Assembly (NCBI RefSeq): GCF_030817355.1
Contig: NZ_JAUSZH010000001.1
Coordinates: forward strand, 806,001 to 870,000
Reading direction: 5' to 3'
Source of the DNA: Streptomyces sp. V1I1
GTDB lineage: Bacteria > Actinomycetota > Actinomycetes > Streptomycetales > Streptomycetaceae
DNA length: 64,000 nt
Part shown: positions 18,398 through 33,810 of the stretch, piece by piece
Position numbering within the stretch: position 1 is the first letter of the stretch
How the letters are laid out: each line of letters opens with the position of its first letter
Translations under genes and position numbers: made by a program
The notes under the pieces: model-generated
Told to the model about the DNA's origin: nothing
The model's database searches: none
The model's input: only the letters and a program-made list of their open reading frames with translations

Positions 18398-20653
<2,256 letters not shown>

Positions 20654-20695: not shown

Positions 20696-21476
20696 CTCCG
20701 GGCCGACTCACGGCCGTCTGGGACAACTGCATCCGTTCCTGCTGGTCACAATGGGGACAGAGCGTGTACCACCAGCGACCTGGACATGCTCGCAGTTTCC
20801 GATCCACCTCCTCCACGGGGGGCTCGGCGACAGAGATGACCTTTTCGGGGCGCCCCTTGCCGGCGCCGACGCCCTACGGGTGAGCACACCGCTCGACACC
20901 CTTTGGCACGTCGCCCTCCCTCAAGCGCTCGAGCCCACCAAGAGCCAACCTCACCTGCCCCGGCGGGGCCCAGCAACCTGATTACTCGTCAGCAGGGTCA
21001 GCAAGAGTCTGATTAGACCTGGTGACAGACGCCAACACCTGCAACTCGTTTTCCGCGACAGAGTGGATCACTTCGAGGCGCGGGCACCTCGTGAAGTTCC
21101 ACCACGCCTCAGGCAGCCAGGCCCATGTCCAGCATTCCCAGCCCGGTTCCCGCGCCCTTGTCTGACAGGCGCATTGTCGGCCTGCCGGTTACCTGGAGGG
21201 CATCCGTCCATGGCTGAGCCGGGCAGTCGAGAGTGGTGGTGAGGTGGGCGCGCGGAATCGCCCCGGACGGCGTCCCACCAGTGATGCTGCTCTCCCTGGA
21301 CGGCGAGTGGGACCAGAGGGTTCCCTGCCGGCAGCAGTTCACTTGTTTCGCCAACTTCAGCACGATCAAAGGGTCCTTGGTGGGATAGTCGGTCCATTGA
21401 GTCCGAGCAGTGATCAGGGCCGTCGTGTCGGTAAGTGTTCCAGGCACGATCGTCTAGTGCAGGGGGGCCGCGCGCG
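20696..21476. other. gene-poor left border of the 21-32 kb island
   Basis: This stretch lies between the katG terminator and the island operon. It contains the left direct repeat (20978-21044). On the minus strand 21109-21447 is open for 112 residues from a GTG (MPGTLTDTTALITARTQWTD) without a ribosome binding site or recognised family; I do not annotate it as a gene. Nothing else is recognised. Confidence 0.45.
20978..21044 (+). repeat. direct repeat, left copy (candidate attachment site)
   Basis: This 67-bp stretch matches 32652-32728. The longest exact run is AGAGTCTGATTAGACCTGGT; both sides also share ATTAC, GTCA and GGGTCAGCA, and downstream ACAGACGC and CTGCAA. The right copy has an 11-nt insertion. 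The two copies frame the conflict-type operon and its border DNA. Confidence 0.75.
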
Positions 21477-21779
21477 ATGGATGCACTGGGACTGGCGGAG
21501 ACGGTGGAGGCGCTGCGCGCCGAGTTGGCCCGAGCGGCGGCCGCGGGGGCGGGGTCCGGGTTCCAGTTCCCGGTGACGGGGGTACAGCTGGAGTTCCATG
21601 TGGCAGTGACCCGGACTGCCGAGGGAAGCGCCGGGGTGAAGTTCTGGGTGGTGGAGTTGGGCGGCGCGGGCGGCTACGCGCGGGAGGAGATTCAGACCGT
21701 AACGGTGACCCTGGGTGCGCCTGTGGGTCCGGACGGCCTGCCGGTCAAGATTCACCATGGTTCCGCCGGGAAGCCTTGA
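21477..21779 (+). CDS. Trypco2 (trypsin-co-occurring) domain protein
   Basis: A 100-residue protein: an N-terminal helix (LGLAETVEALRAELARAAA) and a beta-rich body (VTGVQLEFHVAVTRTAEGSA, VKFWVVELGG, IQTVTVTLGAPV). This matches the small Trypco2 family encoded next to trypsin-like proteases in actinobacterial conflict-type operons. It probably acts with the protease encoded just downstream, as cofactor, adaptor or inhibitor; this is inference. The ATG at 21477 follows a G-run (AGGGGGG). It is the first gene of the island operon: a TTG overlapping its stop is a possible start for the next gene. Confidence 0.8.
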   Translation: MDALGLAETVEALRAELARAAAAGAGSGFQFPVTGVQLEFHVAVTRTAEGSAGVKFWVVELGGAGGYAREEIQTVTVTLGAPVGPDGLPVKIHHGSAGKP

Positions 21780-21793
21780 GCCGGCGCAGCTCC

Positions 21794-24700
21794 ATGGACG
21801 ACGCGTACGACACCGGGACTGGCCGGGCAGTCGAGGTGCTCTATGACCGTGGCCCGGACACTCCACCATCGCTGCCTCGGTGGAGCGCCGGTTCGGGCTA
21901 TCTCATCGGCGGTCACCTGGTACTGACCGCCGCGCACAATCTCGACTACCGGCAGGAGCTCAGCTGTGATGAACAGCTGTTGGTGCGCGACATCGACGGT
22001 GTCGAGTACATGGCGACGGCCCTGCTCGTCTGCGACCGGAGCTCCGACGAGGATCTCGCCCTCCTGGTGATCGACGATCCCGAGGTACCCGATACGCCTG
22101 CGGTCTCCTTCGCCCAGGTGAACCGGGACAGCCCCGAGGCGGTCACGGGCTGCTGGGCCGTCGGCTTCCCGCGGTTCGGTCAGGCCGGTCAGGTTCTGCC
22201 TGAAGGCAGCTCCAGGGACACGTGGCATGTCCACGGCGAGATCTCCCCCGGAGGGAAACAGCGCGCCGGCAGGCTGGCCCTGCGGGTGAACGACGCCCCA
22301 CGGCCGCTCGGTGACTCGGCATGGGAGGGGATGTCCGGTGCCGTCGTCTTCACCGGCAGCCCGGGCGGCCCTCAGCATGCCGTCGGGGTCGTCATCGAGC
22401 ATCACACGCCTGAGGGAGAATCGGCTCTCACCGTCGCACCGGTCAACGCCATCATCGATCCGGACAGGGCGAGACAGTGGTGGGAGTACCTCGGAGTGGG
22501 CGAACCGGACGGCCTCCCGGTCCTGCCACGGCCGCCGCGCGGTTCCGGTCCCCGGCCACGACCCGGCTGGGAACGCGGGTATCTGAAACTGCTTCGAGAC
22601 AAGCACGCGGGGGTGACGGTTCCACTGTCGTCCGAGGACCAGTCCGTGGCCCTCGAGCGCGTCTACCTGCCGCTGGACCTCAGTCCCGGCGACGGGCACG
22701 GCACCGTGACCGCCGAGGACCTGCTCCAGGCGAAGGTCGCCCTCGTCATCGGCGATGCGGGTTCCGGCAAGTCCACGTTCTTGAGGTGGCTGACGATGTG
22801 CCTCGTCAAGAAGCGTCTGGAGCAGCAGCGGACGGCGGGCACCGCACCGGCGGTTTCCGGGCCACGTGCACGCCTGCCGGTCTGGATGCCGGCGGTGGAC
22901 GCTCTCGAATCGTTGAGCGGGTCCGGCAGCGGCCGCGCAGTGAGTCCGAGGAACATCGGTGACAGCTGGACCAAGGCACTTGCCCGTGTACTGAACCTCC
23001 AGCCCGAACAGACCCGGAGGCTGCTCGACGACGGCGATCTGATCGTGGTCTTCGACGGTCTCGACGAAATCCCGGACGCGGACGCACGCGTCGGCCTGGT
23101 CGAGGCGATCCAGGTGCTCCACCGCATGCTCTCGCCCAGTGCGGTGCATGTCGTCATCAGTTCCCGTCCACAGGCATGGGCGGACGCGCTCCCCAACGCC
23201 ACCCGGGTGCGCTTGCTGCCGATGACCGAGGACAAGAGGGACCAGTACCTCCAGAAGTGGTGTGCGGGGGTCCGGACGTCAGACCCGGAGCGGGCGCGGC
23301 GATTCATCGACGATGCCATCCGGGACTCCAGCGGCCTCGCCAAGCTCGCCACGAATCCGCAGTTCGCCGTGATGCTCGTGCAGATCGCGAGTGGACCGAT
23401 CCCGCATCAGCGCGTTCCTCTGTACGAGGCTTTCATCGAAAACGTCCTGGCCAAGCCAGCGGTGCGAAAGCTGGGCATCTCACCGACGATGTTGCGCGGT
23501 CATCTCGAAGCAATGGCGGTCGCTTTGCAGCGAGAACGCTCCCGACCCACCTCGTCGACCGGTTACCTGCACATCGACGCCGCACACCGAATTCTCGCCG
23601 AGCGATTCGCCGCCGCGGAGCCGGCCGGTTCCGTCAGATCCCTCCTCGACAGCCTTGTTCTGCACACGGGCCTGCTCGCGATCAAGAAACCCTCGCCTTT
23701 CGACTGCACCGTCGCCTTTGTGCATCAGACGTTCCAGGAGTTTCTCGCGGCCGGTTACTTCGCGACCCGACCGCATGAGCTGGCCGAGCATCTCGCCGAT
23801 GCCGCCTGGGTGGAGACCATCGCACTGGCGGCAGGCATCCGTGCACGCAGTGATCCCGACCGGCTGCCCGCCTTCTTCACTGCACTCCTACGACCGCCCA
23901 GGATCCCGCCCGGCAGCGACGCTGCGAGCCGGGACACATGGATCGCGTGGGCACCGAGGCTCGCGGCCGTGACGGTGGCGCTCGACGAGGTCGACTCTTT
24001 CCTGCCCGAAGAGCGGAAGGCGGACCTGCTCGCACCCGTACACGCCGTACAGAGGGACATCAAGACGGTGTTGGCGTCTCTCCCGCTCCCGGACCGGCGC
24101 CGTATCGCCGCAGGATTCTGCAGGGTCCTCGACAGCGACTTCGAAGTGCCGGAGCGCTGGGCGGAGATACCGGCCGGGGCATTCATCCGCGGGTCGGACG
24201 ACCTCGAGGCCTGGGACCACGAACGACCGGCGAAGACGATCCGGCTCGACCGGTACCTGATCCAGCGGTGGCCGGTGACCGTCGGCGAGTACGCACGTTT
24301 CCTCGCCGACGGAGGCCAGCGCGACAGCAGATGGTGGGACGGGGAAGGATGCGCGTGGCGTGACCGCGAAGACGCCGTAGCGCCACTCGGCTGGGAGGCC
24401 CAGCGTGTCCACACCAACCGTCCGGTGACCGGCGTCTCCTTCTGGGAGGCGACCGCATATGCACGGTGGCTCTCCCGATGCGGACCCGTCCCCGAAGGCC
24501 ATGTTGCGGCACTCCCCACCGAGGCACAGTGGGAGAAGGCGGCCCGGGGCCCGACAGTCCAGACGGAGCCCCGTGCGAAGCGGTTCCCGTGGGGGGACGA
24601 CTGGCTCGACGACCGGGCGAACTGCCGCCGGTCGAACGTCGGTATCTGCCCGGTGATGCTGTTTCCCACCGGCCCCTATCGGATCTGGGACATGGCCGGC

Positions 24701-24931
24701 AACGTCGCAGAGCGCTGCCGCGACGGCTTCGTCGGGCACAGCGAGGCCGAGACCACCGACGTCAACCCCGTGGTGGCCGAATACACGCACGGGCATGTGG
24801 TCAAGGGCGGCGGATTCCGCTCCTTCCCGATGGATCTGCGCGTCTCCGCGCGCTTCGGCGAGGACCGGGACGCCCGCGCGGATTGGATCGGATTCCGGCT
24901 CGCCGCCGTACCACCCGGCCCCGAGGGGTAG
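21794..24931 (+). CDS. trypsin-like protease - NACHT NTPase - FGE-sulfatase domain protein
   Basis: A 1045-residue three-part protein. (1) Trypsin-like domain, residues 1-240, with His48 (VLTAAH), Asp87 (EDLALL) and Ser181 (GMSGA), so likely active. (2) NACHT/STAND NTPase, about 310-700, with Walker A GDAGSGKST (Lys326), Walker B VVFDGLDEI (Asp421) and VHQTFQEFLAAGYFA in the helical part. (3) FGE-sulfatase/C-type-lectin-like domain, about 790-1040 (EIPAGAFIRGSD, RWPVTVGEYARFL, LPTEAQWEKAARG, WDMAGNVAE, FRLAAVPP). This is an NLR-like design: C-terminal sensor, NTPase switch, protease effector. The next gene starts 3 nt after the stop. A start at TTG 21776, overlapping the Trypco2 stop, is possible. 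No signal peptide. Confidence 0.9.
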   Translation: MDDAYDTGTGRAVEVLYDRGPDTPPSLPRWSAGSGYLIGGHLVLTAAHNLDYRQELSCDEQLLVRDIDGVEYMATALLVCDRSSDEDLALLVIDDPEVPDTPAVSFAQVNRDSPEAVTGCWAVGFPRFGQAGQVLPEGSSRDTWHVHGEISPGGKQRAGRLALRVNDAPRPLGDSAWEGMSGAVVFTGSPGGPQHAVGVVIEHHTPEGESALTVAPVNAIIDPDRARQWWEYLGVGEPDGLPVLPRPPRGSGPRPRPGWERGYLKLLRDKHAGVTVPLSSEDQSVALERVYLPLDLSPGDGHGTVTAEDLLQAKVALVIGDAGSGKSTFLRWLTMCLVKKRLEQQRTAGTAPAVSGPRARLPVWMPAVDALESLSGSGSGRAVSPRNIGDSWTKALARVLNLQPEQTRRLLDDGDLIVVFDGLDEIPDADARVGLVEAIQVLHRMLSPSAVHVVISSRPQAWADALPNATRVRLLPMTEDKRDQYLQKWCAGVRTSDPERARRFIDDAIRDSSGLAKLATNPQFAVMLVQIASGPIPHQRVPLYEAFIENVLAKPAVRKLGISPTMLRGHLEAMAVALQRERSRPTSSTGYLHIDAAHRILAERFAAAEPAGSVRSLLDSLVLHTGLLAIKKPSPFDCTVAFVHQTFQEFLAAGYFATRPHELAEHLADAAWVETIALAAGIRARSDPDRLPAFFTALLRPPRIPPGSDAASRDTWIAWAPRLAAVTVALDEVDSFLPEERKADLLAPVHAVQRDIKTVLASLPLPDRRRIAAGFCRVLDSDFEVPERWAEIPAGAFIRGSDDLEAWDHERPAKTIRLDRYLIQRWPVTVGEYARFLADGGQRDSRWWDGEGCAWRDREDAVAPLGWEAQRVHTNRPVTGVSFWEATAYARWLSRCGPVPEGHVAALPTEAQWEKAARGPTVQTEPRAKRFPWGDDWLDDRANCRRSNVGICPVMLFPTGPYRIWDMAGNVAERCRDGFVGHSEAETTDVNPVVAEYTHGHVVKGGGFRSFPMDLRVSARFGEDRDARADWIGFRLAAVPPGPEG

Positions 24932-24934
24932 GCC

Positions 24935-27900
24935 ATGACTCAGCCGCAGGACCCCGTCGAGGGCTTCCCCACCACACTCTTCCGCGAACTGCTGCGCCAG
25001 GCCCGCTCGCTGCTGAGCACCGCCGACGACCGCACCCGGCTGCGTACGAGCCTTCGGCTGGCCGGCCCGGACGAGGCACGGCAGGCCCAGCCGGCGAACA
25101 GGGACAGTGGTGAAGGCCCGGACACCCAAGGCGACGCCGACGACACGGCCGAACACAGCGCGCTGAGCGCCGAAAGGGCCGAGGAGGAAGGCCGCCGGGA
25201 CGACCTTGCGCATGTCTCACGCGCCTACCACGCCGCGCGGGACTTCGCCTCGGACCGGGTATTCGCCGACGCGCTGCTGCGCCAGGTCGCGATGCCCGAT
25301 CATCTCGACGCGGCGGTCCGGCTCGCTCATCGCGCCGTCCACGTGCTGCCCGAGCACGAACGCGAGCAATGGGACGAGCTCGTAGCATCGCTGGAGCGTC
25401 TCCGTGCCCGGCACCGCCGCCGGGCGGTCGGTCATGAGCAGGACACGGACCTCGACACCTACCGTCGACGGGCCAACTTCGAGTGTGTTCACCACTATTC
25501 GCTGACGGACGAGTTCATCGGGCGCGAGGACGATCTGCGCGCGCTGGAGCAGTGGGCGTCCGACCCGGAAGGGAGGGCCGTCCTCTGCCTCTGCGCGCTC
25601 GGCGGCGGGGGCAAGACCGCGATCGCATGGCAGTGGATCAACCGCGTCCTGGCCGAATGGCACAACAGCGGCTATCGCGGCGCCTTCTGGTGCAGTTTCT
25701 ACGACAAGGGCTTCGACTTCGAGGCCTTCCTGCGCCGAGCCCTGGTCTTCTGCGGGGGCAAGGAGGAGGCCACGGTCCGGTCCATGCCGCGCACCTGGGT
25801 CGAGGAGGAGCTTCTTCAGGCGCTGGCGCGTGAGCGCTTCGTGCTGGTGATCGACGGCTTGGAGCGCCTGATGGCGGCCTACACACGCGCCGCCGACCGG
25901 GCGATCGACGAGGAAGGTGCGCGTGCCGCCGACGACTTCGTCTTCGCGTCCCCCGCACAGCGCAGCATGTCCGACCCGCGCGACGGTGAGTTCCTGCGCC
26001 GTCTGGCCGGGACCGGCAACGGTACGAAGGTGCTCATCACCACCCGGCTCCGCCCCACCGAACTCGAGCCCAGGAATGGACAGGACGCGCGCGCGGTGGC
26101 GGAGTTCCACGACGTCGAAGGACTCAACCGGGACGAGACGTACGAACTGTGGGACAGCATCGTCCAGGACAGCCCGTCCGACGATGTGCTGGACGCGCTG
26201 TTCGATCTGTGCGGCGACCATCCGCTCACCGTCGGTGTGCTGGCCCGGGAGGTCGCCGAGAGCGGGGGCTGGACGCCCTGGCGCGCCGCGCACCGCGATT
26301 TCGACCCCGAGGGCCCGCCCGCGCGGGCACGGGCGTACATCATCGGCACCTCCGTGCGCGACCTGGGAGAGGACCGGCTCGAGGCGCTGTTCGTACTGAC
26401 CATGAGCGGTCGGCCCATGCTGCACCGGGAGGTCGCGGAGGCGCTGCGGTTCGGCTCGATCGCCGATGACGGGGGCCGGTGGGCCGAGCCGGACCGCGTC
26501 GACGAAGTACTCGACCACCTGATCAAACGCGGCCTCATCGGCCGGGTGAGGGAGGAGGACACCTGGGAGTACGACGTGCATCCCGTCGTGCGGGGGCAGA
26601 TGTGGGAGGCGCTCACCGACACCGGGACCGGACGCGAGCGGTTCCTCGGCCACGCGCTGTCGGAACTGACCGCGATTCCCGATCCGCAGCGCCCGCTGGA
26701 TCTGCACCATCTGCGGCGCGCCATCAAGGTGTACGGGATGTATGCCGGTGCGGAGCAGTTCGACCGTGCCTGGGAGCTCTTCTACTACCGGCTCTGGTAT
26801 CCCCTCGAAACACAGGGCGCCACCCGCGAACTGCTGGACCTCCTGCGTCGGTTGCTGCCCCTGGGAGATCTGTACCAGCTGCCGCCGCTGACGTCCCGGC
26901 GCCAGCAGGCGATCGCGACCGGCGCACTCGCCGATCTCCTGGTCCAGATGGGCGACGGCGGATTCGACCGGGACGGGCTCGGCGATGTGCTGCTCCGCTG
27001 GAGCGGCGCGATCGCACTGCGCCTCGGCGATGTCTTCATGTTCCTGGGTTTCCACCACAGCCGCACCTGGGTGTCGCTCTACGAGGGGCGGCTCTATGAG
27101 ACGGAGATCGAGCTCCGCCGGCTGCGCTGGATGAGCGTGCGGGCCGGCGCGTTCGGCATGGTGGGGCCGATCGACCTGTGGATCGGCATCGTCCTCGCGC
27201 TGCGTGGCGAGGCACCAGAGGGTCTCGCTCGACTCGACTCCCCCATGGGCCACTTCGACTCCGAACGGTGGCGCAAGCAGACGGCGGCCGAGGGGCTTCT
27301 GTACGCGAACCGGCCCGCCGAAGCGCTGCAGCTGCTCGACTACCTGACCGAGCTGGGCACGGACGCGTCGGAGGGGCACAACCAGCTCGCTTGGGAGTAT
27401 CTGACCAGGGGTGTGGCGAAGTACCGGGCCGGCGCCGGCACGCCGGAGGAGCTGGACGAGGCGTACGACGACCTCGCCACGGCGCTGAGCACCGCGCGGG
27501 GCATCGAGTACGTGGTCGTACAGTGCTTCGCCCTCACCACGCTCGCGCAGATCCGGCTCGACCAGGACAGCGTGCAGGCCGCGGCCGACCTCGTCGACCA
27601 GTACTTCCGCCTTGATCCAAAGGGCCGCTACCGGCTCACCGCTTCCGATGCCCACCGGATTCACGCGGAGTGCGCCCGCAGGCGAGGGGACATCGGGGAG
27701 GCGGTCTCCGCCGCGCGCAAGGCGTACGAGCGTGCCGCCTGCGACGGTCCGCCGTTCGTCTACCGGGACGGGCTCGTCCTCGCCCGTGCTCTGCTCACCT
27801 CGCTCGGCGCATCGGTGCCCAGGGTGGACGCGGAGCTACCGCCGGAGTGGGCGACGGTGCTGAGCGAACAGGTCTGCCGGGAGGAGGAGCAGAGCAACGC

Positions 27901-30550
27901 GCTGCTCGCTCGTCGGCGGCCCCGCCGACGGCCGGCCGGCCGGAGCAGGGACACCAACGAGATGATCCTGCGGGTGGACCGGATGGCCCGCGCCGGCACC
28001 GACGACGACCAGCGCTGGTGGTCCGACGTCACCGGCGACCACTCGACGATCACCTTCCTGCTCGGCAAGACCATGGTCGAGCTCGGGCTCACCCTCGCGG
28101 ACGCGCGGGCGCGCTTCGAGCGGAGCGCCCACCGTTCGATCGAGGTGCTGTATCACGAGCTGTGGGCGATCCGGGTCCTGCATCCCGAGGAGCCCAGGCA
28201 AGCCGCCGACGCGTCGGCGGAGCAGCGCGACGCGTGGCTCGCCGACACCGCGACACAGGATGTCCAGCTTGAAGCGTTCCTCGACGGCGATCGCGCGAAG
28301 GAGGCGGCTCATGCCTTCGACGCGCATGGTCTCGACGACAAGGGCATGCGGGTGTTCCTCGACGACGGCCTGCGGCGCATCGGCTTCGCGAACGCGCCGG
28401 ATCACGTCCGCCGATGGTGGCACCAGGCCGAGCGACGCCGCGGCTTGACCGGGGCGAACGGCCTGCGCGACATGCTGGTCATCGCCGAATGCGTGCAGTC
28501 GGTCCCGGCCACGCTCGCGCAGTTCGTCGACGCGATCTCCCTGCGCGGGGCCGAAGGGATCGAGTACGCCTTCCGCGCGCTCGACGTGGCGCGGTCTACC
28601 GAACAGCCGCAGATCACCTGGGTGTCCAGGGTGGAGGGCTGGCCGCCCTGGCGGATCCTCCTGCGGCTGCAGGCGGTGCTGTACCAGCTCGACTGGCCGT
28701 CGGCCGCACCCGAGGTACGGGCGTTCTGGCGGCGGCTTACCAGCCCCGACAACTCACGGCTCGACCGAGCCCTGCACCTGGCGGAGGAGATCGCGCTGCG
28801 GGAGGGCGCCTCGCTCACCGACTACCACGACGCGTGGCTCGGCGGGGGCACGGCCAATATCCAGGCGATCCTGTGCTTCCTCGACTACCAGCGCACGAAG
28901 TCCGCGCCGGCGGGCGAGGAGCCCTGGTCCGACGGCAACGCCGCGACCCGCTGGCCGTACGACACCAGGTCGCCCAGCTTCACCGACACCTCGGCATGGG
29001 CGGCCGACCGGATCGTACGACGCCTTGGCCAGTTGAAGAACCGCATCGGCTACGGCGCGGCAAGCAATCCGGCACGGGCCTGGTGGGACGGCCTCGAAGA
29101 CCGGGCGTCCGGCCGGGCCATGGTCAGGCTCGCGGAGGAGCTCGACACCCGCGGCGAGACCGTCGACGCCTTCCATCTCGCCCATGTCGACGCCCACACC
29201 GACCATCCCGTGGCTACGCTCGCCTATCTCGATTTCGACAGGCTTCGGAACACCTACGGCGACACCGACGCCGAGGCCGCCGCGCAGTTGCACAACGACA
29301 TCGCCAACCGGCACTACACCGAGGGGGACTTCGACTCCGCGATCGACAGATACGAGGCAGCCATCGGACAGGACCCGACCAGGCCGGTGTACTACACCAA
29401 CCTCGCCGGGGCATGGCGGAAGAAATTGGACTCGGCCGCCGGAGCGCGGAAGGCGATCGAAGTGGTTCGCCGCGGCTTGGACCACTGCACGGAAAAGTCC
29501 GATCTGGAGAGCGAACTCGCTCAACTCGACCTCTGGCTCCGCGGGTTGGGGCGGCGTGACGCGGGGGGCGACGCCGATTCCCTGGCCAGCGTCGTCACCC
29601 CGGTCGTGGTCGAACTCTCCAGAGCCCTGCAAGGCGATACGGCAGGGCTGGTGGCGCGGACGAACGACGTGCGTGGTGAGATCCAGGCGACCGTCGGTGT
29701 GTGGCTGCCACCCGTTCGGTACCGGGGCAATGACGAACTGGATCCCGGCCACTACGTCATCGTGATCAACGAGGGTCGCCGCATCCTGGGGATCACCGTG
29801 CCGGGCGCGGTCTTCGTCCGGTCCGGCGGTGCCGCGCGGGACCCGCTGGACGGCGCATCCGGCGCATGGGTCGCGACCACAGACGACGCTGCCGCGCCCG
29901 AGGGCGCGTTGAGCCCGTACGACTTCACTCTGCGCCATCTCCACCGGGCGGTGCTGGCGGACACCTCGTGGCTCCGCGAGGCGGACATCGCCGCGACGCT
30001 CGAGGAACGCTGGGCGGACCCGCTCGACCCGGTCGCGGATCTCCCGTTGCTGGCCGGCTTCACCACGGTCGTGCGGGCCATGCTCGACGACGGGGTGCCG
30101 GTGGTGGCGATGGAGGTTCTGCTTGATGCGTACCGGGGGGCCCGGGACCGGGGCGAGAACATCGACGAGGCGATTCAGAGTCTCCGCGTGCTGCCGGGCG
30201 TCCGGCCGCAGTTGCCGGGGAACTCGCCCCGCGGTGAACTGGTGCGCCTCGGCGATGACCTCGAACGGATTCTGCGATCCGCTCTCGTCGATGCGGGTGA
30301 CCAGCACATCCTCGTACTCGACGCACGGGACGCGTACACGGTTCTCGATGTGCTCCGCCAGGAATTCGAGGATCGCCGACCGGATGAGCGGCGAACTCTG
30401 CTCACCACGGATCCGCTGGTGCGCCGCTATCTACGGCTCCTGGTCAGAACCGAATTTCCCTGGCTGCACGTCATCGCGGATGCCGAGCTCCTCGGCCGAC
30501 GTACGGTCGGCCGCACAGTGACATCGACGGATGCCAAGGATCTGTCATGA
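24935..30550 (+). CDS. giant STAND NTPase with TPR-like region and C-terminal FlhA (FHIPEP)-like domain
   Basis: A 1871-residue soluble protein. Residues 1-180 are helical and charged, possibly an adaptor. The NB-ARC/STAND domain (about 190-600) begins TDEFIGREDDLRALEQW and has Walker A GGGGKT (about 223-228), Walker B VLVIDGLERL (near 306) and VLITTRLRPTE (near 368). A long helical solenoid follows, with a clear TPR near 1450-1500 (RHYTEGDFDSAIDRYEAAIG). Residues about 1556-1860 read like the FlhA cytoplasmic domain: VVVELSRALQGD, VWLPPVRYRGNDELDPGHYV, a GVPVVAMEVLLDA stretch matching the FlhA GVxIRDLxxIL motif, and RTEFPWLHVIADAEL near the end. No membrane helices. The FlhA-like domain is my reading and needs profile checking. 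GAGGGG precedes the ATG. Confidence 0.8.
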   Translation: MTQPQDPVEGFPTTLFRELLRQARSLLSTADDRTRLRTSLRLAGPDEARQAQPANRDSGEGPDTQGDADDTAEHSALSAERAEEEGRRDDLAHVSRAYHAARDFASDRVFADALLRQVAMPDHLDAAVRLAHRAVHVLPEHEREQWDELVASLERLRARHRRRAVGHEQDTDLDTYRRRANFECVHHYSLTDEFIGREDDLRALEQWASDPEGRAVLCLCALGGGGKTAIAWQWINRVLAEWHNSGYRGAFWCSFYDKGFDFEAFLRRALVFCGGKEEATVRSMPRTWVEEELLQALARERFVLVIDGLERLMAAYTRAADRAIDEEGARAADDFVFASPAQRSMSDPRDGEFLRRLAGTGNGTKVLITTRLRPTELEPRNGQDARAVAEFHDVEGLNRDETYELWDSIVQDSPSDDVLDALFDLCGDHPLTVGVLAREVAESGGWTPWRAAHRDFDPEGPPARARAYIIGTSVRDLGEDRLEALFVLTMSGRPMLHREVAEALRFGSIADDGGRWAEPDRVDEVLDHLIKRGLIGRVREEDTWEYDVHPVVRGQMWEALTDTGTGRERFLGHALSELTAIPDPQRPLDLHHLRRAIKVYGMYAGAEQFDRAWELFYYRLWYPLETQGATRELLDLLRRLLPLGDLYQLPPLTSRRQQAIATGALADLLVQMGDGGFDRDGLGDVLLRWSGAIALRLGDVFMFLGFHHSRTWVSLYEGRLYETEIELRRLRWMSVRAGAFGMVGPIDLWIGIVLALRGEAPEGLARLDSPMGHFDSERWRKQTAAEGLLYANRPAEALQLLDYLTELGTDASEGHNQLAWEYLTRGVAKYRAGAGTPEELDEAYDDLATALSTARGIEYVVVQCFALTTLAQIRLDQDSVQAAADLVDQYFRLDPKGRYRLTASDAHRIHAECARRRGDIGEAVSAARKAYERAACDGPPFVYRDGLVLARALLTSLGASVPRVDAELPPEWATVLSEQVCREEEQSNALLARRRPRRRPAGRSRDTNEMILRVDRMARAGTDDDQRWWSDVTGDHSTITFLLGKTMVELGLTLADARARFERSAHRSIEVLYHELWAIRVLHPEEPRQAADASAEQRDAWLADTATQDVQLEAFLDGDRAKEAAHAFDAHGLDDKGMRVFLDDGLRRIGFANAPDHVRRWWHQAERRRGLTGANGLRDMLVIAECVQSVPATLAQFVDAISLRGAEGIEYAFRALDVARSTEQPQITWVSRVEGWPPWRILLRLQAVLYQLDWPSAAPEVRAFWRRLTSPDNSRLDRALHLAEEIALREGASLTDYHDAWLGGGTANIQAILCFLDYQRTKSAPAGEEPWSDGNAATRWPYDTRSPSFTDTSAWAADRIVRRLGQLKNRIGYGAASNPARAWWDGLEDRASGRAMVRLAEELDTRGETVDAFHLAHVDAHTDHPVATLAYLDFDRLRNTYGDTDAEAAAQLHNDIANRHYTEGDFDSAIDRYEAAIGQDPTRPVYYTNLAGAWRKKLDSAAGARKAIEVVRRGLDHCTEKSDLESELAQLDLWLRGLGRRDAGGDADSLASVVTPVVVELSRALQGDTAGLVARTNDVRGEIQATVGVWLPPVRYRGNDELDPGHYVIVINEGRRILGITVPGAVFVRSGGAARDPLDGASGAWVATTDDAAAPEGALSPYDFTLRHLHRAVLADTSWLREADIAATLEERWADPLDPVADLPLLAGFTTVVRAMLDDGVPVVAMEVLLDAYRGARDRGENIDEAIQSLRVLPGVRPQLPGNSPRGELVRLGDDLERILRSALVDAGDQHILVLDARDAYTVLDVLRQEFEDRRPDERRTLLTTDPLVRRYLRLLVRTEFPWLHVIADAELLGRRTVGRTVTSTDAKDLS

Positions 30551-32112
30551 GGGAAAGCCGCGCCACCGGCGAAGCCGAATCCGCCGACACGATCACAGTC
30601 GAGATCGGGTTGCCGGCAACCGCGGATCCATCCGGGACAGCACCGATCGAGGCCGCGGTGCGAAGCACCGTACAGCGACTGGTCACCGACCTCGCCCTGC
30701 CGCTCTCGCCACGGGTAGAGGTGGCTATCAGTACCGCGGAGCGGCTCCTGATGCACATCAATGGACGCCGGTGCCGCATGGTCGAACGACGCTACTTCGC
30801 ATCGCTCGACCAGTCGTTGCACGCCCGGCTCGCCGACGCGGTGGACACAAGCCCGGAGCTGTTGCTCACCCCGGCGGTGATCGCGGCGCTGTGGTCCGGG
30901 TGGGGTGGGACGACGAGTCGGCCACCGGAGGCGTTCGCCGCCACACTGCGCTCACTCGTTCGCCATCGTGTGCGCCCCGACCGGTTGGCCATTACCACGG
31001 CCATGTGGTCCGACGACCAGGCCGGCCGGGCATTCGAGGATGCCATGTGCGAGGCGAGCGCACCCTTGACCATCATGGTCGATCAGCTGACGCATATCGA
31101 GATCAACAAGGATGAGGAGCAGGTAAGCGCGGATACCGCGTGGCTGGCCGAAGGAGTGTTCGTGGAACTCGGGGTCGTGCTCGGACGGCCGCGCGTCGAC
31201 CTCGACGAGAGTCTTCCGCCGTACCACTCCACCGTGAAGATCAACGACTGCCGGCTGAACACACAACCTGGGATCCGCCCCGGCACAGCCTTGGTAAACG
31301 ACACCGCGGGGAGACTCAAGGCAATTGACGTGGACGCCAAGCCGGTTACGAACCCCTCGACCGGGCAGCCTGCCGCCGTGGTCGCCACCAGGCATATGGC
31401 CTTGCTCGAGGCGGCCGGCCACACGACGTGGACGGTGTTGGGCACTGTCATCCTGGTGGCCGCGGCACAGGTCCGGCGCCATGCGTGCGCGCTGCTCAGC
31501 CGTGACGTCGTCGAATGCCAGCTCGGCACACTGGCCGACACCGCCGCCGCGATGGCTGCGTCGCTGGGCGGGGCGGACGCACTCACACCCGTCATGCGGG
31601 ACCTTGTGTCGGAGGGCGTCAACGTACGTGATCTGACCGGTATCGTCGGATCGCTGTATCGCGCGCCGACAATGCCCGCCTGGGTGGACGAGCGTGTGGT
31701 CATCGCACCAGCGTCCTACCGGCCAGGGCTGCCCGACGCTCCGGAGCTGGGGAACACCGGGCTGGTGTCCTCCGTGGAGGCCGTGCGCATGGCCTTTGCA
31801 CCCGCTGTCTCGTCCAAGTTCGCAGGCAGTGCCAAGACCCTGGTGGTGTACCTGCTGGCATCACAGATCGAGGTCCGGCTGAGTGATCCCACACCTTACT
31901 CGGAGGCCGAACGTGACGATCTGATCGGCCTCATCATGGAGGAAATGCGATTCTTGCCACCAACAGCGCTGGTGCCCGGAATCCTCACCCGGGTCGCTGC
32001 ACGCCGGAGACTGCGCGAGCTCATCCGGGCCGAACTGCCACAGGTGCCCGTGCTCTCGTACCGCGACATCGACCCTGAGTTCAATGTCCAGCCGATCGCG
32101 CGGATCGGCTGA
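30547..32112 (+). CDS. soluble FlhA (FHIPEP)-like protein of the conflict operon
   Basis: A 521-residue protein. The N-terminal 200 residues (TITVEIGLPATADPSGTA, then helical) are unrecognised. From about residue 200 to the end it follows the cytoplasmic domain of FlhA/LcrD export-gate proteins: VELGVVLGRPRVDLDESLPP, VKINDCRL near 232, LLSRDVVECQLGTLAD, EGVNVRDLTGIVGSLYRAP (358-376, FlhA motif GVxIRDLxxILE), VVYLLASQIEVRL, and a C-terminus LPQVPVLSYRDIDPEFNVQP where FlhA has LPVLSYNEIPPxxxIQ. The eight FlhA membrane helices are absent, so it cannot form an export channel. It overlaps the STAND gene as ATGA, with AAGGA 6 nt upstream, so the two are coupled. Function unknown; a scaffold or signalling partner is inferred. 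Confidence 0.8.
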   Translation: MRESRATGEAESADTITVEIGLPATADPSGTAPIEAAVRSTVQRLVTDLALPLSPRVEVAISTAERLLMHINGRRCRMVERRYFASLDQSLHARLADAVDTSPELLLTPAVIAALWSGWGGTTSRPPEAFAATLRSLVRHRVRPDRLAITTAMWSDDQAGRAFEDAMCEASAPLTIMVDQLTHIEINKDEEQVSADTAWLAEGVFVELGVVLGRPRVDLDESLPPYHSTVKINDCRLNTQPGIRPGTALVNDTAGRLKAIDVDAKPVTNPSTGQPAAVVATRHMALLEAAGHTTWTVLGTVILVAAAQVRRHACALLSRDVVECQLGTLADTAAAMAASLGGADALTPVMRDLVSEGVNVRDLTGIVGSLYRAPTMPAWVDERVVIAPASYRPGLPDAPELGNTGLVSSVEAVRMAFAPAVSSKFAGSAKTLVVYLLASQIEVRLSDPTPYSEAERDDLIGLIMEEMRFLPPTALVPGILTRVAARRRLRELIRAELPQVPVLSYRDIDPEFNVQPIARIG

Positions 32113-32118
32113 CGTGGC

Positions 32119-32313
32119 TTACTTGGACGTGTTCTTGAAGCAGCCCTCGATGATTTCGAGCGTCGTCGACTTGTAGACGCTACTACCGCATGACGGGCAT
32201 GATCCTTGTGGACTCCTCGACAGCACGACGGTCTTGCCCTGAACGAACCTCGCAATCGAGATCCGTGGGGAGTACCGCTCACCACATGGGCAGATGCCGA
32301 ACTCCATTGCCAT
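32119..32313 (-). CDS. small zinc-ribbon protein in the island
   Basis: A 64-residue protein with CPCGERY near the start and CPSCGSSVYK about 35 residues later, a CxC/CxxC zinc-ribbon layout. It is convergent with, and ends 6 nt from, the FlhA-like gene. The ATG at 32313 has GAGGCAGG upstream; an internal ATG two codons later is possible. Family and role not recognised; it may bind nucleic acid or protein through the ribbon. Confidence 0.55.
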   Translation of the reverse strand: MAMEFGICPCGERYSPRISIARFVQGKTVVLSRSPQGSCPSCGSSVYKSTTLEIIEGCFKNTSK

Positions 32314-32844
32314 ACGCCTGCCTCGCCCCCACTTGACGCGCGCGTTCCGATCGACGACATAGACCAATGAGCGCCGACAAATCAACAAGACACATCGATC
32401 ACTCAAGCACAGAACCCTGACAGGGTGGTCTTGTAGATAGCACCGTCTAGCGCATCCGAAGTAGCCAGTACGTACGCCGACACTGATCCGCTCCTGCAAG
32501 CAGGAGACCATTCCAACTCGCGTTTAGCGACGTTGCAGCACGTCGGAGACCTCTACTGCCGGGGCAGCCAATGCTCGACATGGAGCAGTCGCCACACCCT
32601 GCTGTGCCGTGACTCCTGCCCATCCCTCCTGGCACCCACATGCGGCCAGATCTAATTACGCGTCAATAGGGTCAGCAACGGGTCAGCGAGAGTCTGATTA
32701 GACCTGGTCACAGACGCTAAGCCTGCAAGTACCGACACCCAGCCGAGACGGCCAACAAGAAGGCGCGGCCACCCCCTCCGCCGCACAGAACCGGAGATGA
32801 TGACCGCGCCTCGCTGTCACTAGCGCCAGACACATAGCCCCAGT
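32314..32844. other. gene-free right border of the island
   Basis: About 530 bp, visibly less GC-rich than its surroundings in 32314-32660. It contains the right direct repeat (32652-32728). No gene, RNA or clear terminator was found. Confidence 0.5.
32652..32728 (+). repeat. direct repeat, right copy (candidate attachment site)
   Basis: Counterpart of 20978-21044 in the same orientation; AGAGTCTGATTAGACCTGGT is identical. It carries an extra 11 nt that partly repeats the GGTCAGC word. The repeats bound about 11.7 kb. Confidence 0.75.
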
Positions 32845-33810
32845 TCAGCGCACCCGCCCCCGTGGTTTCAGCGCCACCGGCGGCAGCTCGGGTGCGGCCA
32901 ACGGGCCACCGTCGTAGCCCTTGACCTCGCCGAAGCGGGAGCTCTCCATCCAGTCCTTCCGAGCCTCCTCGATTTCCTCATGCGACCGTCCGATGAAGTT
33001 CCACCACATGACGATCTCCTCCTCGAACGGCTCGCCGCCGAGGAGCATCAGCCCGGCGCCGGATTCGGCCCGCAGCGGGAGTTCCGTACGGCCGCAGCCG
33101 AGGTAGAGCATCGAGCCCGGCAGTACGGGCACGCCGTCGACATGCGCCTCGCCGGACATGGCGAGCACGGCGTACTCGAAGTCGGGGTCCAGCGGCAGGC
33201 TCGTCTCGGTCCCCCTGGCGAGCGCCAGATCGGCGCCGACGATCGGGGTGTATGTCGTCCCGGGCGAGGCGGCGCCGTCGAGGGCGCCGAGGATGACCGT
33301 GGCGGTCAGGCCGGGCGCGGTGACGGTCGGCAGCTCGGTGTGGTGCTGGAACTGCGGCTCGACGCTGCGGTGCGCGTCGGGGAGCGCGACCCAGAGCTGG
33401 GCTCCGTGGAGGAAACGCGCGTGCGGCTTGGGGCTCTCCTCGGAGTGGCTGATCGCGCGCCCGGAGGTCATCAGGCCGAGTTCCCGGGGGCGGATGGTCG
33501 CCAGGCTGCCGGTGCTGTCGCGGTGCAGCACCTCGCCGTCGTGCAGCCAGCTGACGGTCTGGAGGCCCATGTGCGGGTGGGGCGGGACCTGCATTCCGGG
33601 CTCGTCGGCGATGTCGTCAGGCCCGTAGTGATCAACGAAGGCCCAGGCGCCGACCATACGGCGGCCGAGGTTGGGCAGCAGTCGGCGGACCTCGGTGGAC
33701 TCGCCGAGCTGGACTCGGCGGGGGCTGAGAAGTTCACGGACGGGCTCGGCGACGACGAAGCCACGACCGCCGCAGACTGAGAGGGCGGCCTGACGATCGA
33801 GATTGCTCAT
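32845..33810 (-). CDS. pirin-family bicupin protein
   Basis: A 321-residue cupin protein of the pirin family. The N-terminal cupin carries the Fe(II)-binding pattern PPHPHMGLQTVSWLHDGEVL with a later His in GRAISHSEE; the C-terminal cupin is VLPGSMLYLG to LRAESGAGLMLLGGEPF. Relatives include quercetinase-like enzymes and redox-sensing regulators. The ATG gives the usual length; upstream only weak AGG is seen. It is transcribed divergently from the TPR gene, with an AT-rich stretch (GGAATATTCAACC near 33870) between them that probably holds both promoters. A decayed second copy lies at 465-570. Confidence 0.9.
   Translation of the reverse strand: MSNLDRQAALSVCGGRGFVVAEPVRELLSPRRVQLGESTEVRRLLPNLGRRMVGAWAFVDHYGPDDIADEPGMQVPPHPHMGLQTVSWLHDGEVLHRDSTGSLATIRPRELGLMTSGRAISHSEESPKPHARFLHGAQLWVALPDAHRSVEPQFQHHTELPTVTAPGLTATVILGALDGAASPGTTYTPIVGADLALARGTETSLPLDPDFEYAVLAMSGEAHVDGVPVLPGSMLYLGCGRTELPLRAESGAGLMLLGGEPFEEEIVMWWNFIGRSHEEIEEARKDWMESSRFGEVKGYDGGPLAAPELPPVALKPRGRVR

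Follow-up and report, generated by a model that had tools for sequence, protein, structure and literature searches.

The Trypco1 and Trypco2 domains take their names from the trypsin-like peptidases that they neighbor in conflict systems (Kaur et al. 2020, PMC7159879). In the CARD-NLR (nucleotide-binding leucine-rich-repeat) systems, represented by LypABC, a trypsin-ATPase protein is encoded with an NLR-like protein (PMC13236601), and in STAND-FGE systems with a recruited trypsin (DGR 6 type) a STAND NTPase has an FGE-type C-lectin fold, the proposed sensor, at its C-terminal side, with trypsin as the effector (PMC10907252). We analyzed a 64,000-nucleotide (nt) stretch (the window) of the genome of Streptomyces sp. 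V1I1, a non-flagellated soil bacterium whose genome comprises 8.3 Mb in two contigs. Within the window, four tightly packed plus-strand genes at 21477-32112 encode, in order, a Trypco2 protein, a trypsin-NACHT-FGE protein, an NB-ARC-TPR-FHIPEP protein and a soluble FHIPEP protein (genes 1 to 4). Tentatively, and at somewhat less than an even chance, we read the set as an NLR-like conflict operon, probably anti-phage, in which gene 3 encodes a STAND receptor that would act with a platform derived from FlhA/SctV to activate an exchangeable effector. The reading builds on gene order, domains and homology, on a genome with no FliP-bearing secretion machine, and on FHIPEP pairing in three loci of two phyla.

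The locus shares with the Trypco-trypsin systems a Trypco2 gene adjoining one for a trypsin-bearing NTPase protein, but vWA and MoxR were not matched by Pfam in genes 1-4, the genes outside the island not having been scanned for them. The terms FlhA and FHIPEP have zero occurrences in the main text of PMC7159879. Unlike LypABC, the locus has a FHIPEP tail, a FHIPEP partner, Trypco2 and FGE, and no CARD was recognized, although no search aimed at CARD was made. It differs from the DGR 6 type in having the trypsin in the same chain and a FHIPEP pair. Matches in PADLOC were weak and confined to gene 2, where the trypsin part resembled trypsin-bearing defense proteins such as LmuA (27.8 bits) and Avs1b of AVAST type 1 (8.8 bits), but in NCBIfam gene 2 scored 8.1 bits for Avs1b against a cut-off of 1500, and Pfam found no nuclease partner gene in the operon. 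The score for the NACHT antiphage protein EruA, 30.4 bits, was likewise below its NCBIfam cut-off of 1000, and the two matches in PHROGs were both to gene 2. Among the papers listed in a literature searched mostly without subscription journals, none treats FHIPEP or FlhA in a STAND or defense setting, and a secretion-ring-derived component of an NLR-like conflict system appears to be new.

Genes 3 and 4 carry modules related to the FlhA/SctV cytosolic domain

Gene 3 (24935..30550, 1871 amino acids, aa) matched NB-ARC (E 9.2e-07), TPR_MalT (E 8.4e-06) with further TPRs, and FHIPEP (E 4.7e-15) in Pfam, and a string search located GGGGKT at residue 223 and LVIDGLE at 304; within its first 200 residues, Pfam matched nothing at E<=5. 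The FlhA/SctV cytosolic-type module lies at its C-terminus, at residues 1566-1852 (29630..30490). Gene 4 (30547..32112, 521 aa) matched FHIPEP at E 3.4e-20, and its module covers residues 171-520 (31057..32106), with two Pfam stretches starting from 171 and an NCBIfam hrcV match running to 520. Both modules align across the cytosolic domain of FlhA/SctV proteins (YscV, CdsV, EscV and FlhA), and the top PDB matches of the predicted models of both were FlhA/SctV cytosolic domains. The VIA structural match of gene 4 spans residues 154-521; in the VIA list no second family reached a high Z, although that rules nothing out. Because Pfam, PDB searches, model searches and VIA agree, a chance profile match was rejected, and the FlhA relationship of both modules is real. 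Profile and PDB searches, to which the sequence-only reading had left the matter, do recover FlhA/SctV.

Two further observations concern the N-terminal part of gene 4. Three of its eight PDB matches at E<=0.01 were to nucleotidyltransferases, at residues 97-180 (30835-31086, E 0.007), and are probably due to chance. A likeness of the N-terminus to SD1, seen by eye, was unsupported when it was compared by profile with FHIPEP modules (probability 3.7).

The family name and the fold could also point to a type III or flagellar export gate surviving as a remnant with a role in secretion. However, the FHIPEP profile matches begin at positions 330 and 346 of 657, so the N-terminal membrane domain is absent, and hydrophobic segments were limited to one weak window in gene 3 at residue 737, with none in gene 4. 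FliP was absent from the strain's own genome and found in 0 of the 3 genomes searched, other export genes not having been searched for, and PF00771 matched in the strain's genome at this locus only. The missing membrane domain and the lack of FliP argue that the modules are not an export gate; we rejected genes 3-4 as a secretion gate and regard a still-secreting remnant as extremely improbable. Also unlike the export gates, the locus has two distinct copies in one operon, and in gene 3 the module is fused to a STAND-TPR receptor.

A FHIPEP pair in three loci of two phyla

The conserved unit is a large FHIPEP-ended protein with a stand-alone FHIPEP protein, whose partners differ between loci. 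In three loci, a large TPR protein ending in FHIPEP is followed directly, and in the same order, by a stand-alone FHIPEP protein that in each case has its own N-terminal extension; the window is from Actinomycetota, and the other two, L005 and L221, are from Bacteroidota genomes. L005, in a metagenome-assembled genome (MAG) of Cytophagales, carries on one strand genes for a SIR2_2-TIR_2 protein (460 aa), an nSTAND1-LRR protein, an LRR-TPR-FHIPEP protein running over two further frames, and a stand-alone FHIPEP protein of 597 aa (E 2.3e-33). In L221, from genome G1361 (one of 271 genomes of the order of that MAG), a 1469-aa protein has TPRs, two predicted hydrophobic segments and FHIPEP at its C-terminal end (E 6.1e-18), and its gene is overlapped by 4 nt by that of a 459-aa stand-alone FHIPEP protein (E 6.2e-12). 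The partners vary, from trypsin and NACHT in the window to SIR2-TIR and nSTAND1-LRR in L005 and none recognized in L221.

FHIPEP modules recur with TIR and STAND domains in other genomes as well. In the 503-aa protein P0010, from a 2548-base contig, TIR_2 (E 7e-30) is joined to FHIPEP (E 5e-41). A second FHIPEP locus of the Cytophagales MAG (L085, 1-7208) has TIR_2, a STAND-like stretch, FHIPEP and a TPR-like protein; its pieces lie in different frames and may be one gene or several, and the STAND-like stretch was seen by eye, with nothing firm in Pfam. One genome of the genus (G391; L049, 8732-13303, minus strand) encodes a CHAT-STAND-TPR protein whose tail gives a tentative match under the cut-off (survey E 8e-4, Pfam E 0.0035), restricted to the initial portion of the FHIPEP cytosolic domain. 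There was also a weak FHIPEP match in L218 (G1487:C34:91940-92209), at profile positions 248-322 (E 6e-4).

The closest relatives are in Streptomyces sp. NPDC020681, where homologues of genes 3 and 4 are the only ones known. That of gene 4 matches at 89% over the whole length and that of gene 3 at 85% over residues 1480-1871, and both are assigned to a 623,260-base contig. A further stand-alone protein of 519 aa from JGI, P0003, matches at 35% over 62% of the query. A scan of a species-genome collection gave 44 loci; the open reading frame (ORF) was read for 17, with hydrophobic segments ahead of the match in 16, as in SctV/FlhA, and none in L005.

We surveyed PF00771 in overlapping samples. 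It was found in 2 of 392 genomes of the genus (the strain's own, and G391 weakly), 1 of 293 of the order and 51 of 394 of the class, where the own genome was joined by 50 others with matches that take in the membrane part, partially so in two. The phylum of G763 gave 90 of 395 (G763 and 89 full-length matches) and its order 3 of 271 (G763, G1361 and G1487). In the large samples, scoring was often confined to two candidates in each genome, and a soluble copy that accompanies a true FlhA can therefore escape. The FHIPEP pair is very rare, while Trypco2 is common, being present in 99 of 150 Streptomyces genomes searched, the strain's own included. Gene 4 had no tblastn match in plasmids and phages, and neither the FHIPEP alignment nor P0010 found a relative in viral contigs.

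This distribution bears on whether the pair could be a membrane-linked or housekeeping unit of trafficking or assembly, outside conflict and beside a defense gene by chance. L221 would suit such a unit, with two predicted membrane segments in its TPR protein, a stand-alone FHIPEP protein and no effector recognized nearby. The extreme patchiness (one weak case besides the own genome in the genus), the repeats that flank the island and the TIR and trypsin partners speak against it, and we consider it improbable.

In a 23-row tree, five stand-alone members formed one group (100/99) beside myxobacterial SctV (87/92), the place of gene 4. The four fused members formed another group on long branches (96/98, and 89/77 in the first tree), whose position differed, beside SctV and the stand-alone members (85/83) in the first tree and on the FlhA side (87/92) in the 23-row tree. 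Both trees warn of long branches, each group includes two near-copy rows, the L005 fused row was joined from two frames, and SctV is represented by five rows only. In the SD3 stretch, the stand-alone members keep the RDL or RNL of FlhA/SctV (window RDL, P0003 RNL, L005 RNL, L221 RDL, by eye), whereas the fused members have VAM (window), TNI (L005) and NDF (L221, by eye); REP stands at this place in P0010, and L085 is unaligned over the stretch. Because of this difference, the alignment hints at a division of labor, in which the stand-alone copy may retain the ring surface and the fused copy may dock or cap.

Genes 1 and 2 and a possible mechanism

Gene 1 (21477..21779, 100 aa) has a Trypco2 domain (Pfam E 2.1e-27); we take its start as ATG 21477, the ORF list having GTG 21435. 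Gene 2 (21794..24931, 1045 aa from ATG 21794, with TTG 21776 also possible) matched Trypsin_2 (E 9.3e-07), NACHT (E 8.8e-14) and FGE-sulfatase (E 7.2e-45). String searches, numbered from that ATG, located the trypsin motifs TAAH (His48), Asp87 and GMSG (Ser181) and the NACHT motifs GSGKS and VVFDGLDE. A Trypco2 gene therefore adjoins a trypsin-like peptidase gene with catalytic motifs, and STAND NTPase cores with Walker A and B are present twice, as NACHT in gene 2 and NB-ARC in gene 3. The FGE domain is nearest to ToxD, EgtB and FGE structures. FGE catalysis uses a pair of cysteines, and in an alignment with FGE 6s07 gene 2 has no cysteine at either position, so the domain is not catalytic by motif. 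The sequence-only reading had credited gene 2 with all catalytic motifs, which holds for trypsin and NACHT and not for FGE. We read the FGE domain as a putative C-lectin-type sensor, a non-enzyme, as proposed for STAND-FGE proteins (PMC10907252).

Of 20 Trypco2 loci searched by tblastn (18 in other genomes and 2 in the strain's own), 11 had the trypsin part and 9 the NACHT part. Gene 3, gene 4 and the FGE part were found in 0 of the 20, a weak result for distant FHIPEP, since the same search overlooked FHIPEP modules that are known in the L005 fused protein, in L085 and in L049. The other 18 genomes belonged to the genus survey of PF00771 as well, which gave matches in none but the strain's own genome and G391. 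From this, genes 1-2 resemble a common protease module with the FHIPEP pair as a rare partner, and we rejected the four genes together as the defining unit. Elsewhere in the strain's genome there are two further Trypco2 genes, at G000:C1:3565321 (L208), where there is a match to the gene 2 NACHT part as well, and at G000:C1:4615858 (L207), which shows Trypco2 alone.

The same counts, and the other partners of the pair in L005, would be expected if the operon were two modules side by side, a common Trypco2/trypsin-NACHT module (genes 1-2) and an independent STAND-FHIPEP/FHIPEP module (genes 3-4) that share only a promoter or the island. The junctions argue otherwise. As the sequence-only reading had described, all four ORFs are present, with a 14-nt gap between genes 1 and 2 (stop 21779, ATG 21794; the alternative TTG 21776 would overlap), a 3-nt gap between genes 2 and 3 (stop 24931, ATG 24935) and a 4-nt overlap between genes 3 and 4 (ATG 30547, stop 30550). 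In L005 as well, the pair follows effector-type genes on the same strand. We regard two unrelated modules as rather unlikely.

Several described proteins suggest how a conflict operon of this kind might work. Assembly of the YscV cytosolic domain into nonamers depends on concentration, the ring requires SD3 and SD4, and YscY, a TPR protein, is seated on it together with its substrate YscX (PMC9163089). Lysis by LypABC requires contact between LypA and LypB, a trypsin-ATPase protein and an NLR-like protein (PMC13236601), and the trypsin-like proteases of Avs and Hachiman cleave a partner that is thereby activated (PMC12799240). Taken together, these papers point to a platform of gene 4 and the gene 3 tail that would switch on the gene 2 protease. 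The TPR region of gene 3 would sense or relay, and its FlhA/SctV-like tail would dock on gene 4, which has the SctV-type signature and probably makes a ring or arc, alone or with that tail. Such a platform might gather gene 3 molecules and hold or release the gene 2 protease, with the pseudo-FGE domain of gene 2 as a possible second sensor. The active trypsin would then cleave a partner, which could be Trypco2, gene 3, gene 4 or a protein of the host, and the infected cell would be stopped. A ring or platform role of the FHIPEP modules is plausible from their sequence relationship; oligomerization, the ring, the flow of signal, the trigger, the protease target, phage defense and the benefit to the host are what we infer here. 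More broadly, and at somewhat under an even chance, the FlhA/SctV cytosolic domain may have been taken from a secretion machine to become a two-subunit platform, with a degenerate TPR-fused copy and a stand-alone copy, for NLR-like receptors. It would link exchangeable protease or TIR effectors as a counterpart of the inflammasome scaffold, with one origin and transfer between Actinomycetota and Bacteroidota.

The FHIPEP parts might instead be bait, with foreign proteins (such as secretion-system chaperones or effectors, or phage proteins) binding to an export-gate domain copied into the receptor, and gene 4 supplying free bait or a competitor. The integrated decoys of plant NLRs are a precedent for such an arrangement. 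FHIPEP stands at the C-terminal, sensor-like end in both gene 3 and the L221 protein, and FlhA/SctV cytosolic domains bind chaperone-substrate complexes (PMC9163089). However, a conserved second, stand-alone member is unexpected for a simple bait and there is no candidate ligand, and we think this explanation quite unlikely.

Some of our results weigh against an operon acting through a FHIPEP platform. The two predicted models are of low confidence, with mean pLDDT (predicted local distance difference test) values of 50 and 58. Without the conserved SD3 Arg, fused members possibly have no usual entry into a ring, and the rule is not clean, as TIR-fused P0010 retains that Arg. In L221, no NTPase or effector gene was recognized by eye among the other ORFs of 18 kb, of which only the FHIPEP pair was scanned. 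Among the genomes examined, the four genes occur together only at this locus; the co-conservation that the sequence-only reading had looked for was not borne out, L005 and L221 having the pair with other or unrecognized partners. The gene 1-2 and gene 3-4 modules may thus be independent.

Island ends and wider meaning

A direct repeat some 60 bases long, made up of 41 nt at 93% and 27 nt at 85%, flanks the block, with its left copy at 20978..21035 and its right copy at 32652..32720, both located by repeat search and genome match. A 76-base query over the left copy had 14 matches in the genome, those at the two island ends at E 1.8e-33 and 6.1e-13 and the other 12 at E>1. A repeat that matches significantly at the island ends only suggests an imported block. 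The right-flank query matched in 39 of 41 genomes, the strain's own included, several of them weakly, and seven regions from six relatives had the right flank in 7/7, the island in 0/7 and the peroxidase side in 0/7. In one relative (G019, L160) the repeat is followed by a pirin 3' fragment and the island is absent. These observations would suit import at a recurrent site, but because the peroxidase and pirin genes are not neighbors in the stretches taken, a clean empty site was not demonstrated. The repeats by which the sequence-only reading had bounded a mobile unit are real, and the unit may be mobile, although no integrase was recognized.

To the left of the island is a catalase-peroxidase-type gene at 18422-20653 (Pfam peroxidase), presumably katG, and to the right a minus-strand pirin gene (Pfam Pirin and Pirin_C) with its 3' end at 32845. 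Fragments resembling the pirin 3' end lie apart from the intact gene at 436-556 in the window, at G000:C1:8046329-8046493 and G000:C1:8052534-8052585, and at L160:6292-6651, and recombination or integration may recur at this end of the pirin gene. Third-position guanine-plus-cytosine (GC) content is 0.79-0.87 in genes 1-4 and 0.83-0.96 in many neighbors. Beside gene 4, inside the island, a minus-strand ORF of 130 aa (32119-32511) has CPSCG-type cysteine motifs, no firm Pfam match and a lower GC content of 0.63.

To our knowledge, FlhA and SctV are known solely as gates of flagellar and injection machines. Both NPDC020681 homologues bear the name "FHIPEP family type III secretion protein", which need not imply secretion. 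The locus offers a small testable system, in which one can ask whether gene 4 forms a ring, whether gene 3 binds it and whether the protease is switched on. If our reading is true, the TPR-protein docking of type III secretion would connect to receptor assembly in immunity, and the FlhA/SctV ring would have gained a second life in a soluble, paired form that is coupled to receptors of the NLR-like kind.

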